Below are positions 24,113 through 27,738 of a DNA stretch of 64,000 nt, one piece after another. Under the pieces are notes generated by a model. It did not search any database. It saw only the letters and a program-made list of their open reading frames with translations, and was not told where the DNA came from. The position numbers and the translations under genes were made by a program. This DNA is from Holdemania sp. Marseille-P2844 (GTDB lineage: Bacteria; Bacillota_I; Bacilli_A; Erysipelotrichales; Erysipelotrichaceae), in assembly GCF_900120005.1 (NCBI RefSeq), contig NZ_LT635450.1, forward strand, positions 1 through 64,000, in the 5' to 3' direction. The stretch's first letter is position 1. Each line of letters opens with the position of its first letter.

Positions 24113-24124
24113 CTTGTATACAAG
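24113..24124. promoter_or_regulatory. CTTGTATACAAG palindrome, GntR-type operator
   Basis: A perfect 12-bp palindrome lies four bases upstream of the -35 of the GH88 gene. TTGTATACAA cores are typical for GntR-family sugar-acid regulators; no GntR gene is in the window. Confidence 0.6.
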
Positions 24125-24128
24125 ATTG

Positions 24129-24157
24129 TTGAACTTCTTGCATAAACTTGCTACAAT
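24129..24157 (+). promoter_or_regulatory. promoter of the GH88 gene
   Basis: TTGAAC (24129-24134), 17 bases, TACAAT (24152-24157). The start near 24164 leaves a 17-base leader with AGAGAGGAG. Confidence 0.8.
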
Positions 24158-24181
24158 AGGAACATAGAGAGGAGATTTCTC

Positions 24182-25345
24182 ATGAACTTTGCAAACTATC
24201 CTGAACTGACCGATACCGAGCTCAACGACGCGATCCATTACGCCGTCGAACAGGTGCGCAGCGGCTTGAACGATTTCACCACCAGCATGAAGTATCCCAA
24301 CAGCGTCAACAATTTTTATCCGCAGATGGACAATACCGAATGGACCAACGGTTTCTGGACCGGCGAGGTCTGGCTGGCTTATGAAGCGACGAAGGAAGAG
24401 TGCTTCAAACAGACCGGTCTGACGCATGTCGAAAGCTTCTTAGACCGCGTCAACCGCAACATCGTGCTGGAACATCATGACCTCGGTTTCCTGTACTCCC
24501 CTTCCTGCGTTGCGGCCTATAAACTGCTCAACGATGAAAAAGCCAAAGAAGCGGCGTTGAAAGCAGCGGACAAGCTGATCACCCGGTTTCAGGAAAAAGG
24601 CGGCTTTATTCAGGCCTGGGGTCCGTTGGGGGCGAAGGACAACTACCGCTTAATCATCGACTGTCTGCTGAACCTGCCGTTATTGTATTGGGCGACGGAA
24701 GTCAGCGGCGATCCGAAATATCGTGAAATCGCGCTGAAGCACATTCATACGGCGTTAAGCGTCGTCATCCGTCCGGATTATTCGACCTATCATACCTATT
24801 TCTTCGATCCGGAAACAGGCAAGCCGAGCCACGGCGTATCCCATCAGGGCAACCGCAACGAATCGGCCTGGGCCCGCGGTCAGAGCTGGGGCGTTTATGG
24901 TCTGGCGATCAGCTACAAATACACGCATAACCCGGAATATCTCGAGCTGTTCCGCCATGTCACGAAATACTTCATTGATCATCTGCCAGGTGATCTGATT
25001 CCATACTGGGATTTTGATTTCACCGACGGCAGCGATGAACCGCGTGATTCTTCAGCCAGCGCGATCGCAGCCTGCGGCATGCTGGAAATGGCGAAATACG
25101 TAGAAAAGGCAGAAGCTGACGAGCTGATCAGCGACGCCAGGCGGATGATCAAGGCTTTGTATGATCACTGCGCCGTCAAGGATCCGAAAATCTCCAACGG
25201 CCAGCTGCTCAACAGCACTTACTGCCGCAGCACCCCGACCAACGGCTGCCGTCAGCACGGCGTCGACGAATGCTGCAGCTGGGGGGATTACTTCTACTTT
25301 GAAGCGCTCACCCGCTTAAGCAAAGACTGGGAAATGTACTGGTAA
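24182..25345 (+). CDS. GH88 unsaturated glucuronyl hydrolase
   Basis: A 387-residue (alpha/alpha)6-barrel enzyme that hydrates and cleaves the unsaturated uronic acid from oligosaccharides made by polysaccharide lyases (from hyaluronan, chondroitin, heparin or similar). The two catalytic Asp residues are in EHHDLGFLY (Asp100) and RLIIDCLLN (Asp160). WTNGFWTGEVWLAYE and the C-terminal CSWGDYFYFEAL are family hallmarks. There is no signal peptide, so it acts on imported disaccharides in the cytoplasm. It is followed by an RpiR gene and PTS EIIA/EIIB genes, usual partners for uptake of such disaccharides. It has its own promoter, operator and terminator. Confidence 0.93.
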   Translation: MNFANYPELTDTELNDAIHYAVEQVRSGLNDFTTSMKYPNSVNNFYPQMDNTEWTNGFWTGEVWLAYEATKEECFKQTGLTHVESFLDRVNRNIVLEHHDLGFLYSPSCVAAYKLLNDEKAKEAALKAADKLITRFQEKGGFIQAWGPLGAKDNYRLIIDCLLNLPLLYWATEVSGDPKYREIALKHIHTALSVVIRPDYSTYHTYFFDPETGKPSHGVSHQGNRNESAWARGQSWGVYGLAISYKYTHNPEYLELFRHVTKYFIDHLPGDLIPYWDFDFTDGSDEPRDSSASAIAACGMLEMAKYVEKAEADELISDARRMIKALYDHCAVKDPKISNGQLLNSTYCRSTPTNGCRQHGVDECCSWGDYFYFEALTRLSKDWEMYW

Positions 25346-25369
25346 TCACTTTCCTGTACCGATCAAAGA

Positions 25370-25395
25370 AACAGCGTCCAACGGCGCTGTTTTTC
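25370..25395 (+). terminator. terminator of the GH88 gene
   Basis: AACAGCG and CGCTGTT around an 8-base loop, then TTTTC. The region from here to 25682 shows no credible gene. Confidence 0.8.
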
Positions 25396-25682
25396 TTATG
25401 GAGCCAGAAAGGGCTTTGCTTACAAAAAAAGGCGGCTGCTTTCCAAGAAGGCCCCATACTCTGAAAACGAGCCGGATTTCCAACGGCTTCTTCTTAGCTT
25501 CTTTCCCAACGCCTCGCTGAGCCTGCTTTTTTTATTTGATTGCATGCTGCTTTGTCAAAGAGGGCCGAAGCTCCCGCATTTCCCGCGGTTTTAGAGTTAA
25601 AAAAAACGCAAAAGCGATCTCAGCCTTTACGCTCCTGCCTGCTTATCCAGCCGTCCGCGGAAGGGACGAATTCTGGTTATCC

Positions 25683-26519
25683 TTACAGATACGTTTTCTT
25701 TTTCCGGTATTGCCAGAACTGATCATAATGTTGTTGAAAATAAGCGGAGAAGATGAGATCACAGAGAAACTGCGCCGAACAGGCCGATGAAAAATTGGCG
25801 ATCTTGATCTGCGGATTTTCCTTGCTGCAAAGAAATAACCGGTAGTCCGCATAATAATGCAGCTTCGGATCCAGCCGGCTGGAGATCAGCACAATCTTCG
25901 CCTCATGCATCCGCAGCGCCTTTACGCATTCCAGCATGTAGCTGGAAATTCCCGCATAAGAAACCACCAAAGCCACGCTGTCGCGATCGGCGGTACTGCA
26001 CACCAGCCGCCCGTCCGTCAGTTCTGAAGGCATCTGGATATTCACCCCGATTTCCTGCAGCTTCTGCATCAAACTCCGGCCGATCAACAAGTTGCTTCCG
26101 CTGCCGATGAAAAAGATCCGCCGGGCCTGCGTCAGCGTCTCAACGATCGCCCGGAATTCCTTAAAATCCAGCATGCGCAGCGTGTCGTCGACCGTCTGCT
26201 TGTAAATATTGGCGATGTTGGCCGTCAGGCTTTCAAGGCTGTCGTCAGAAGAAAAGGGCACGCTGAAGTCGACGTTCTGATACTGGCTGAGTTCTTCGTT
26301 CAACTCTTTCGACAACAACAATTTCAATTCGTTGAAGCCCTTCACTTCCATTTTCCGGCACAAGCGGAAAATACAGCTGATGGAGACATGACATTGTTCA
26401 GACAACTGGCGATAATCCATTTCAACCGCTTCCGTCGTATGCTTCAGAAGATATTCCGCAAGCGTTTGTTCATTCGCACTCAGCGAATGGGTATTTCTTA
26501 ACCGTTCCCGGATATTCAT
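25683..26519 (-). CDS. RpiR family transcriptional regulator
   Basis: The protein has 278 residues. The N-terminal RpiR HTH (about 1-75) includes YRQLSEQCHVSISCIFRLCRKM. A SIS phosphosugar-binding domain (about 105-245) contains RRIFFIGSGSNLLIGRSL and VALVVSYAGISSYML. Such regulators sense sugar phosphates and control sugar operons. The start at 26519 follows AAGGAGGG. It is divergent from the EIIA/EIIB genes and close to the GH88 gene, so it likely governs uronate-sugar uptake. Confidence 0.92.
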   Translation of the reverse strand: MNIRERLRNTHSLSANEQTLAEYLLKHTTEAVEMDYRQLSEQCHVSISCIFRLCRKMEVKGFNELKLLLSKELNEELSQYQNVDFSVPFSSDDSLESLTANIANIYKQTVDDTLRMLDFKEFRAIVETLTQARRIFFIGSGSNLLIGRSLMQKLQEIGVNIQMPSELTDGRLVCSTADRDSVALVVSYAGISSYMLECVKALRMHEAKIVLISSRLDPKLHYYADYRLFLCSKENPQIKIANFSSACSAQFLCDLIFSAYFQQHYDQFWQYRKKKTYL

Positions 26520-26673
26520 GACAATCCCTCCTTCATTATAAAGAGACAATCGGGAAATGCAAATTTATCGGCTGAAATGACAATATTTTTTCGCTGGATT
26601 CTCTTATCTCACCAACAACTCAAAATTCTTTTCCAACCCCTTCCCTAACGCTGTTCAACCTCTTTTTGGCCGT

Positions 26674-26679
26674 TATAAT
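26674..26679 (+). promoter_or_regulatory. -10 element of the PTS genes
   Basis: TATAAT lies in a promoter-like position, but the -35 is poor. The 75-base leader contains GCCGG-CAGCCTCT-CCGGC (about 26702-26721), a small hairpin before the EIIA ribosome binding site. Confidence 0.5.
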
Positions 26680-26758
26680 AAGAGTAGAAGCGAGATACGG
26701 AGCCGGCAGCCTCTCGCCGGCGATCGATCTTCCTCTGAAGAAACGAGGAGATGAGTTT

Positions 26759-27187
26759 ATGATTGGAATTCTGATCTGTGGTCATGATCACTTTGCCTGT
26801 GGGATGCGGGAAGCGGCGGAAATGTTATGCGGTCCGCAGGCTTATCTGCAGGCGCTGGACTACAAGCTGAACGAGGATCTCGACGTCTATCGTCAAAATC
26901 TGCGTAACCAGATTGAAGCCTGGGAGCCGGAAACCGAAGAAATCCTGTGTCTGTGCGACATTCAGGGCGGCTTTCCAATGGAAGCCTGCCTGACACAGCT
27001 TCCGGATAAGAAAGTTAAAATCATCACGGAGACGACCTTAACCTTACTGACCTATCTGCTTGTTCATCGCAATGGCAGCCAGAGTTCGCGTCAGTTAATT
27101 GACAACGCGCTGCTGGAAGCCAAAGAAGCCATTCATGTCATCGACCCGCAAATCTTGTTTGCGGATCAGAAAGGAGAAGCATCATGA
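26759..27187 (+). CDS. PTS EIIA component, mannose/sorbose family
   Basis: A 142-residue cytoplasmic phosphocarrier. The phosphorylated His is probably His9 in LICGHDHFACGM (aligned with the TH-G motif of EIIA-Man). The LCDIQGGFPMEAC segment matches the DLFGG(S/T)P loop. It accepts phosphate from HPr and passes it to EIIB. The start at 26759 follows GAGGAG. It overlaps the EIIB gene by four bases (ATGA). No EIIC or EIID gene follows, so its permease must be elsewhere. Confidence 0.88.
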   Translation: MIGILICGHDHFACGMREAAEMLCGPQAYLQALDYKLNEDLDVYRQNLRNQIEAWEPETEEILCLCDIQGGFPMEACLTQLPDKKVKIITETTLTLLTYLLVHRNGSQSSRQLIDNALLEAKEAIHVIDPQILFADQKGEAS

Positions 27188-27669
27188 GTATATTGAACAT
27201 CCGCATCGACGAACGGCTGATCCATGGTCAGGTGGCTACCGTTTGGACAAATCAGCTGAATATTACACGTATTCTGGTCATTGATGATTTAGCCGCTGTT
27301 GACGACATCCAGAAAATCGCATTGAAAATGGCCTGTCCTTCTTCTTCCCGCTTATCCATTCTCAATGCGGAACGCGCGGTTCAGCGATTAAATGAAAATG
27401 CTTATGATAAAGACCGTCTGATGATTATCATGCGGGGGCCGGCTACCGCCAGAAAGGTTCTGGATCTGGGTTATTTCATGCCAACCATCAATGTCGGCAA
27501 CATTTCGAATAAAATCGGATCCACGCGCATCAAGCATACTGTCTGCGTTACGCCGCAGGAAGCGGAAGATTTCCGTTACATCGAATCCAAAGGTGTCAAA
27601 GTGACGATTCAGATGCTGCCTCAGGATGAAAAGCTTGATTTTATGCCAATGATCGCCAATATTCATTAA
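27184..27669 (+). CDS. PTS EIIB component, mannose/sorbose family
   Basis: The protein has 161 residues. The phosphorylated His14 is in the family signature RIDERLIHGQVATVW. The rest matches the EIIB-Man fold (ILVIDDLAAVDD, LMIIMRGPATARKVLDLG). It overlaps EIIA by ATGA. A strong terminator 35 bases later closes the unit, so EIIA and EIIB form a two-gene operon without the membrane subunits. It may serve a permease encoded with other hyaluronate- or chondroitin-type genes, or act in regulation. Confidence 0.92.
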   Translation: MSILNIRIDERLIHGQVATVWTNQLNITRILVIDDLAAVDDIQKIALKMACPSSSRLSILNAERAVQRLNENAYDKDRLMIIMRGPATARKVLDLGYFMPTINVGNISNKIGSTRIKHTVCVTPQEAEDFRYIESKGVKVTIQMLPQDEKLDFMPMIANIH

Positions 27670-27703
27670 TTTTCTTTTTCCATAAGTGCGCTGAAAAAGC
27701 GAA

Positions 27704-27738
27704 ACCCAGCCCGGCTGCAACCCGGGCTGGGTCTTTTT
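27704..27738 (+). terminator. terminator of the EIIA-EIIB operon
   Basis: ACCCAGCCCGG pairs with CCGGGCTGGGT (11 bp), then CTTTTTC. Confidence 0.9.

Follow-up and report, generated by a model that had tools for sequence, protein, structure and literature searches.

A permease-less RpiR-EIIA-EIIB cassette beside a GH88 gene in Holdemania: a candidate detached phosphocarrier and a separate, predicted uronate operator

The stretch of DNA analysed here (the window, 64,000 nucleotides) is part of contig C13 of the 3.68 Mb, 17-contig genome of Holdemania sp. Marseille-P2844. It carries a gene for a family GH88 hydrolase, a gene for an RpiR-family regulator, and an overlapping pair of genes for the soluble enzyme II subunits EIIA and EIIB of the mannose-family phosphotransferase system (PTS), for which the membrane subunits EIIC and EIID are missing. 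On balance we favour a reading in which the region consists of two independent neighbouring units, with the EIIA-EIIB pair acting as a detached phosphocarrier that serves, in trans, permeases encoded elsewhere as EIIC and EIID only. The features of the region are as follows.

24113..24124, no strand: palindromic operator CTTGTATACAAG, exact, 58 bases 5' of the GH88 start
24182..25345, plus strand: GH88, predicted unsaturated glucuronyl hydrolase (UGL), 387 residues (Pfam, phmmer, orthologues)
25683..26549, minus strand: RpiR-family regulator (HTH_6 and SIS domains; Pfam), divergent from EIIA
26574..26592, no strand: putative RpiR operator, the block GAAATGA(C/A)AATATTTTTTC, conserved in the RpiR-EIIA gap in two species only
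26759..27187, plus strand: mannose-family EIIA, start codon ATG at 26759 (Pfam PF03610, E=1.6e-14)
27184..27669, plus strand: mannose/sorbose-family EIIB (Pfam PF03830, E=2.4e-45)
27704..27732, plus strand: hairpin resembling an intrinsic terminator, with an 11-pair stem, closing the EIIA-EIIB unit

All of these main elements (hydrolase, operator, regulator, overlapping pair and terminator) had been named in an original prediction made from the sequence, and Pfam, site and hairpin searches place each of them where it was said to be. The absence of EIIC and EIID was likewise borne out. No gene matching PF03609 or PF03613 was placed within the window, which therefore lacks a complete mannose-family EII locus, and there is no EIIC or EIID within 125 kb of the pair; the nearest EIIC on the contig is at C13:153055, so any permease would have to be unlinked, as had been suggested. 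The EIIA and EIIB frames overlap by 4 bases, and the hairpin behind them is a strong one. The GH88 and PTS genes are on the same strand but are parted by the oppositely oriented RpiR gene, and so do not form one operon. The regulator has the HTH_6 and SIS domains of the RpiR/MurR family and no PTS-regulation domain.

The genome (G000) was compared with those of an uncultured Holdemania (G001), H. massiliensis AP2 (G002) and H. filiformis DSM 12042 (G003), and the operator search also covered the family members G009, G033 and G034, giving six genomes besides our own. Directly downstream of CTTGTATACAAG at GH88 are promoter-like hexamers (TTGAAC-17-TACAAT). This is the sole match in the window at up to two mismatches, and the whole genome contains two exact copies and no one-mismatch copy, against an expectation of 0.05 exact copies, calculated from the dinucleotide content of 464 kb of the same genome. 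The second copy lies 52 bases 5' of the inferred start of kduI, with kduD next; their products are KduI (PF04962) and a short-chain dehydrogenase. Each of the four Holdemania genomes has exactly two perfect sites, at GH88 and at kduI, and the site is unchanged in all four within a GH88 upstream region that has otherwise drifted. The operator is thus kept across species at both places, as expected of a UGL/KduID regulon, while no perfect copy is found in G009, G033 or G034. This conservation identifies CTTGTATACAAG as a genuine predicted operator of uronate metabolism, common to GH88 and kduI-kduD, and upholds the earlier claim that the GH88 operator is real. The genome-wide site search finds no CTTGTATACAAG site at EIIA-EIIB. 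Judged by the operator only, the PTS genes are not co-regulated with UGL, as they would be in a PTS locus for glycosaminoglycan disaccharides.

In the uncultured Holdemania, a one-mismatch copy of the operator is found 20 bases 5' of a gene for a GntR/FCD regulator, which makes its product a candidate binder of CTTGTATACAAG; a copy of this regulator was not found among the loci from other genomes, a comparison confined to those loci and not extended to whole genomes. A gene for a WYL-domain regulator (L030:503-1486) is located directly 5' of kduI-kduD on the same strand. For the 10-base operator core TTGTATACAA, no paper evidently about a bacterial operator was found among the titles listed, and none on the glycosaminoglycan pathway of Holdemania among those listed for the genus. 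The accessible part of PMC12838403, on KduI clusters, does not mention Holdemania or GntR.

The hydrolase and the PTS genes also differ in their distribution. GH88 orthologues are present in all three other Holdemania (97, 98 and 85% identity). Among 59 relatives besides our own genome, an EIIA orthologue (threshold E <= 1e-15) is present in one, H. massiliensis, with 76% identity, so that the cassette occurs in two of the four Holdemania; a second H. massiliensis match, at 27%, is a paralogue. H. massiliensis has GH88, RpiR (77% identity), EIIA and EIIB in the same order, likewise with no adjacent EIIC or EIID. Its RpiR (L027:16372-17088) is C-terminally truncated by about 25 residues, inside or just past the SIS domain. 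The gene located past EIIB in the window is 2443 bases from GH88; in H. filiformis the two genes are 150 bases apart with no cassette between them, and the uncultured Holdemania has GH88 and no cassette. By these comparisons RpiR-EIIA-EIIB is an accessory cassette, predicted to be separable from GH88. A single operon or regulon of GH88 and EIIA-EIIB was rejected on operator and species distribution, and the original description of GH88, RpiR and EIIA-EIIB as one uronate-sugar locus cannot be kept, the operator being missing at the PTS pair and the hydrolase occurring in four species where the cassette occurs in two. The original prediction had also allowed for EIIC and EIID adjacent to the pair in related strains and lost here; a recent loss at this locus was rejected, as they are missing in H. 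massiliensis too.

Comparison of the window with H. massiliensis gives ratios of nonsynonymous to synonymous substitution rates (dN/dS) of 0.02 for GH88, 0.09 for RpiR and 0.14 for EIIA. For EIIB, the proportion of nonsynonymous sites that differ (pN) is 0.087, against a saturated synonymous proportion (pS) of 0.754. The genes are thus maintained, with EIIA and EIIB both under purifying selection.

A mannose-family EIIB is usually seen as the permease-specific step of phosphotransfer and is encoded with its EIIC and EIID. The window EIIB has a PTSIIB_sorb domain with an intact RLIHGQV active site, whose histidine is found in all 91 EIIBs compared, window included. BLAST gives it 86% identity with its orthologue, 60-65% with six further Holdemania EIIBs and no more than about 45% with the rest. 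These eight Holdemania EIIBs form one group (SH-aLRT 94 in one tree, support 80/97 in another). All eight are more than 2.5 kb from any EIIC, compared with 4 of the 78 other EIIBs (Fisher p 9e-9, a value that overstates independence, since the eight comprise three orthologue groups and are related by descent). A contig end makes this distance too large for the EIIB on C15 of our own genome; among the relatives of that EIIB it is 2.7-3.9 kb. In the stretches around EII genes, no EIIA is found within 7 kb of six of the eight; in G001-G003, EIIA was counted only within such stretches, and in our own genome by a genome-wide search.

Profile searches of the same genome gave 28 EIIC, 29 EIID, 26 EIIB and 26 EIIA matches, four of the last in open frames of 591-956 residues that are LevR-like by size. 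The original prediction proposed a whole-genome check for unpaired EIIC and EIID genes, and such genes exist: across the four Holdemania genomes, 17 of 92 EIICs have no EIIB within 2 kb. Permeases of EIIC and EIID only and detached EIIBs are thus a pattern of the whole genus, and the cassette fits into it. The collection left out the region around a partial EIIC at G003 C34:36316, as well as a partial EIIC at C34:150841 that is too short for calling. The 17 fall into six types, with the neighbouring regulators named by eye from sequence.

Type I: neighbours NanE, a SIS protein and RpiR
Type II: neighbours GntR and a SIS protein
Type III: neighbours a sulfatase and a DUF3604 protein
Type IV: neighbours NagA, a SIS protein and GntR
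Type V: a lone EIIB lies 2.7-3.9 kb away
Type VI: H. filiformis only

The type I EIIC is sister (99/97) to the EIICs of two Clostridia clusters, L055 and L056. The order in L055 is EIIC-EIID-NanE-EIIB-EIIA and in L056 EIIC-EIID-EIIB-SIS-EIIA (NanE not called), each with RpiR upstream, and type I has no adjacent EIIA or EIIB. Few EIIBs outside the detached clade are closer to it than those of these two clusters, which share 43-45% identity with the window EIIB. EIIC types II, IV and V form one group (85/71), in which a single EIIC, G003 C33:336647, has an EIIB of its own, the next-scoring to the detached clade (45%). It is suggestive that EIICs with no EIIB are apparently kin of EIICs whose EIIBs are in turn kin of the detached clade. 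The solo EIIB at C15:561530 and the EIIC-EIID genes at C14:608 look unlinked because contigs end between them; they were rejected as orphans, as they are 3.8-3.9 kb apart in H. massiliensis and H. filiformis. An EIIC-EIID-only operon at L019:5702-10331 includes a sulfatase (PF00884) and a DUF3604 protein, and may encode a permease for a sulfated sugar.

In the arrangement we propose, the first unit would be GH88, controlled through CTTGTATACAAG jointly with the unlinked kduI-kduD, presumably by a GntR/FCD protein. GH88 would free the unsaturated uronate from glycosaminoglycan disaccharides, and KduI and KduD would carry it on. The second unit would be the accessory cassette, with RpiR facing EIIA-EIIB. 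From the gene content, the detached clade, the EIIC-EIID-only loci and the signs of selection we infer phosphotransfer in trans: the window EIIB would receive its phosphate from the divergent EIIA of the cassette or from a different EIIA, and would pass it to sugars at EIIC-EIID-only permeases whose genes lie elsewhere. Among these candidate partners, several sit with apparent amino-sugar genes (NanE, NagA, SIS isomerases). A sugar phosphate is the presumed ligand of RpiR and probably the signal on which this regulator turns the cassette on.

Several observations weigh against this proposal. H. filiformis has types I-V and no cassette, so the cassette is not essential to these types, and two other detached EIIBs could suffice for them there. 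A search upstream of five EIIC-only operons and of the solo EIIB did not turn up the conserved block of the RpiR-EIIA gap, and the type III EIIC shows no specific link to the detached clade. The deep branches of the EIIB tree are poorly resolved, and the presumed tie of the window EIIB to any permease rests on gene content and trees. Finally, the window EIIA lacks residues thought, from the accessible text of PMC7587183, to serve phosphate positioning and HPr contact.

This last point concerns a divergent protein. The predicted fold is that of EIIA-Man (mean predicted local distance difference test score, pLDDT, 73.7, from 4 sequences), with 3lfh as the best match in the PDB (E 5.8e-10), and its best NCBIfam match is AgaF, below the cut-off. 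After removal of 5 LevR-like rows from 81, residues could be counted in 76 EIIAs, numbered as in E. coli and S. pneumoniae. His10 and Asp67 are kept in all 76, the window EIIA included, in keeping with its EIIA-man domain. Ser/Thr72 is found in 74 and so is Gly94; at both positions it is the window EIIA and its orthologue that depart, with Phe72 and Glu94. Position 75 is Glu in these two only (others have Gln, Asn, His, Thr or Leu), and position 96 is Thr in both and in three other EIIAs. According to the accessible part of PMC7587183, Ser72 aids phosphate positioning, and Asn75, Gly94 and Asn96 are suggested HPr contacts; both orthologues have F, E, E and T at these four places, although Asn75 and Asn96 vary in other EIIAs as well. 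The donor or role of the window EIIA may differ accordingly, with an altered phosphate donor or a part in sensing.

It is conceivable, if rather unlikely, that the pair as a whole is regulatory: the EIIA would be no normal HPr-fed carrier, and EIIA-EIIB would report phosphorylation state to RpiR or another regulator and move no sugar. The loss of Ser/Thr72 and Gly94 in only 2 of 76 EIIAs would fit such a role, as would the retention of His and Asp under constraint, the divergent RpiR adjoining EIIA, and the precedent of Brucella, which has no permease for its retained mannose-family EIIA; a regulatory role is proposed for that protein in the accessible part of PMC2937029. The EIIB is, however, canonical and belongs to a clade in which most members have no nearby EIIA, EIIC-EIID permeases in need of an EIIB do exist, and the RpiR has no PTS-regulation domain. 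A broader extension of the phosphocarrier proposal is more doubtful still. The mannose-family PTS of Holdemania might be rewired many-to-few, with lineage-specific free EIIBs serving several EIIC-EIID-only permeases and the cassette as an RpiR-controlled plug-in whose EIIA has a changed donor or sensor role, so that one sugar signal would tune several permeases.

We consider it improbable that EIIA-EIIB power the uptake of the glycosaminoglycan disaccharides on which GH88 acts, through an unlinked EIIC-EIID for which type V, near a solo EIIB, would be the best candidate. GH88 does adjoin the cassette in both species that hold it, and UGL is coupled with mannose-family EII genes in streptococci, as far as described in the accessible part of PMC6837340, and in the family relatives G009 and G034. 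There, UGL is found with EIIB-EIIC-EIID, a heparinase-like lyase, a LacI-type regulator and 2-keto-3-deoxygluconate (KDG)-pathway genes (named by eye), with no EIIA in the stretch examined. No Holdemania EIIC groups with this UGL-linked type in the EIIC trees, the pair lacks the CTTGTATACAAG operator, and GH88 occurs with no cassette in two species. An imperfect copy of the GH88/kduI operator is seen 270 bases 5' of the type V EIIC (L024:434-445, L057:5064-5075, L083:10254-10265), with one mismatch in two species and two in our own genome. As a third, weaker operator it would favour this uptake route, but it is a weak lead, since the near-match is missing in G001 and is far from the start codon.

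That the cassette is a decaying relic of a once-complete RpiR-EIIABCD operon is very improbable: its patchy spread and the truncated RpiR of H. massiliensis would fit, but EIIA and EIIB are unbroken frames in two species and under purifying selection, the layout with no EIIC or EIID is alike in both, and the EIIB active site is kept.

The hydrolase itself is well placed in its family. Its product scores above the cut-off for PF07470 (E=5e-22), and the closest solved proteins are streptococcal UGLs; phmmer matches S. agalactiae UGL 2zzr over residues 3-387 (E=1.8e-121), which is near full length. By family and by this match to a characterised enzyme, it is predicted to be a cytoplasmic UGL. A second UGL in the same genome (L049:7606-10861; G000 C16:105605-108860), 61% identical to it, adjoins a heparinase II/III-family lyase and an AraC-type regulator and has no CTTGTATACAAG site.

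Other isolated PTS genes were noted. At G000 C17:48124-48974 (L025), an EIIA-EIIB pair with no EIIC or EIID of its own follows, after 2 kb, a complete A-CD-B cluster in which EIIC and EIID are fused, a layout also seen in H. massiliensis and H. filiformis. An EIID gene at L021:7652-8494 (G000 C15:357651-358493) has no adjacent EIIC, EIIB or EIIA, and a lone EIIA at L023:7470-7883 (G000 C16:185469-185882) adjoins an apparent integrated mobile element (recombinase and coupling protein, by eye).

The free-EIIB clade in this genus of gut commensals, together with the 17 of 92 EIICs that have no nearby EIIB, makes a relaxed specificity of EIIB for many permeases testable. Permeases of EIIC and EIID only should not be taken as broken, nor should unlinked EIIA-EIIB pairs be assigned to the substrate of a neighbouring enzyme. 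The GH88-kduID operator would represent a simple two-operon regulon for the use of host glycosaminoglycan uronate.

One of the closest known counterparts is the streptococcal glycosaminoglycan cluster, which, from the accessible text of PMC6837340, comprises UGL (gbs1889), EIIA (gbs1890) and EIIB-EIIC-EIID (gbs1886-1888); in one S. agalactiae strain, 55 genes lie between EIIA and UGL. Both have a UGL of the same family with mannose-family EIIA and EIIB close by. In contrast, the window has no EIIC or EIID, its pair is accompanied by an RpiR of its own and shares no operator, and its EIIA is only distantly related to the streptococcal EIIA (4tkz, E=2e-8).

For EIIA, there is precedent for sharing in trans: in B. 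subtilis, EIIA-deficient PTS transporters (PtsG, GamP, PtsA) are served by noncognate EIIAs, as outlined in the accessible part of PMC6148471. No corresponding report for a mannose-family EIIB, nor any on free EIIBs of this family or on the Holdemania PTS, was found among the papers listed by searches of the open literature. The likeness to the proposed Holdemania scheme is that a soluble PTS domain is given in trans to permeases that have none of their own. The B. subtilis case concerns the glucose family and EIIA only, whereas in the mannose-family systems of Holdemania EIIB itself is detached from EIIC-EIID, which is more unusual. The Clostridia clusters L055 and L056 hold EIIB and EIIA inside the cluster, unlike Holdemania type I. 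In the Aga PTS of E. coli, the EIIA AgaF is said to serve two permeases; only EIIA is common there, and each permease keeps its own EIIB. As in the scheme proposed for Holdemania, a soluble subunit would be common to several mannose-family permeases.

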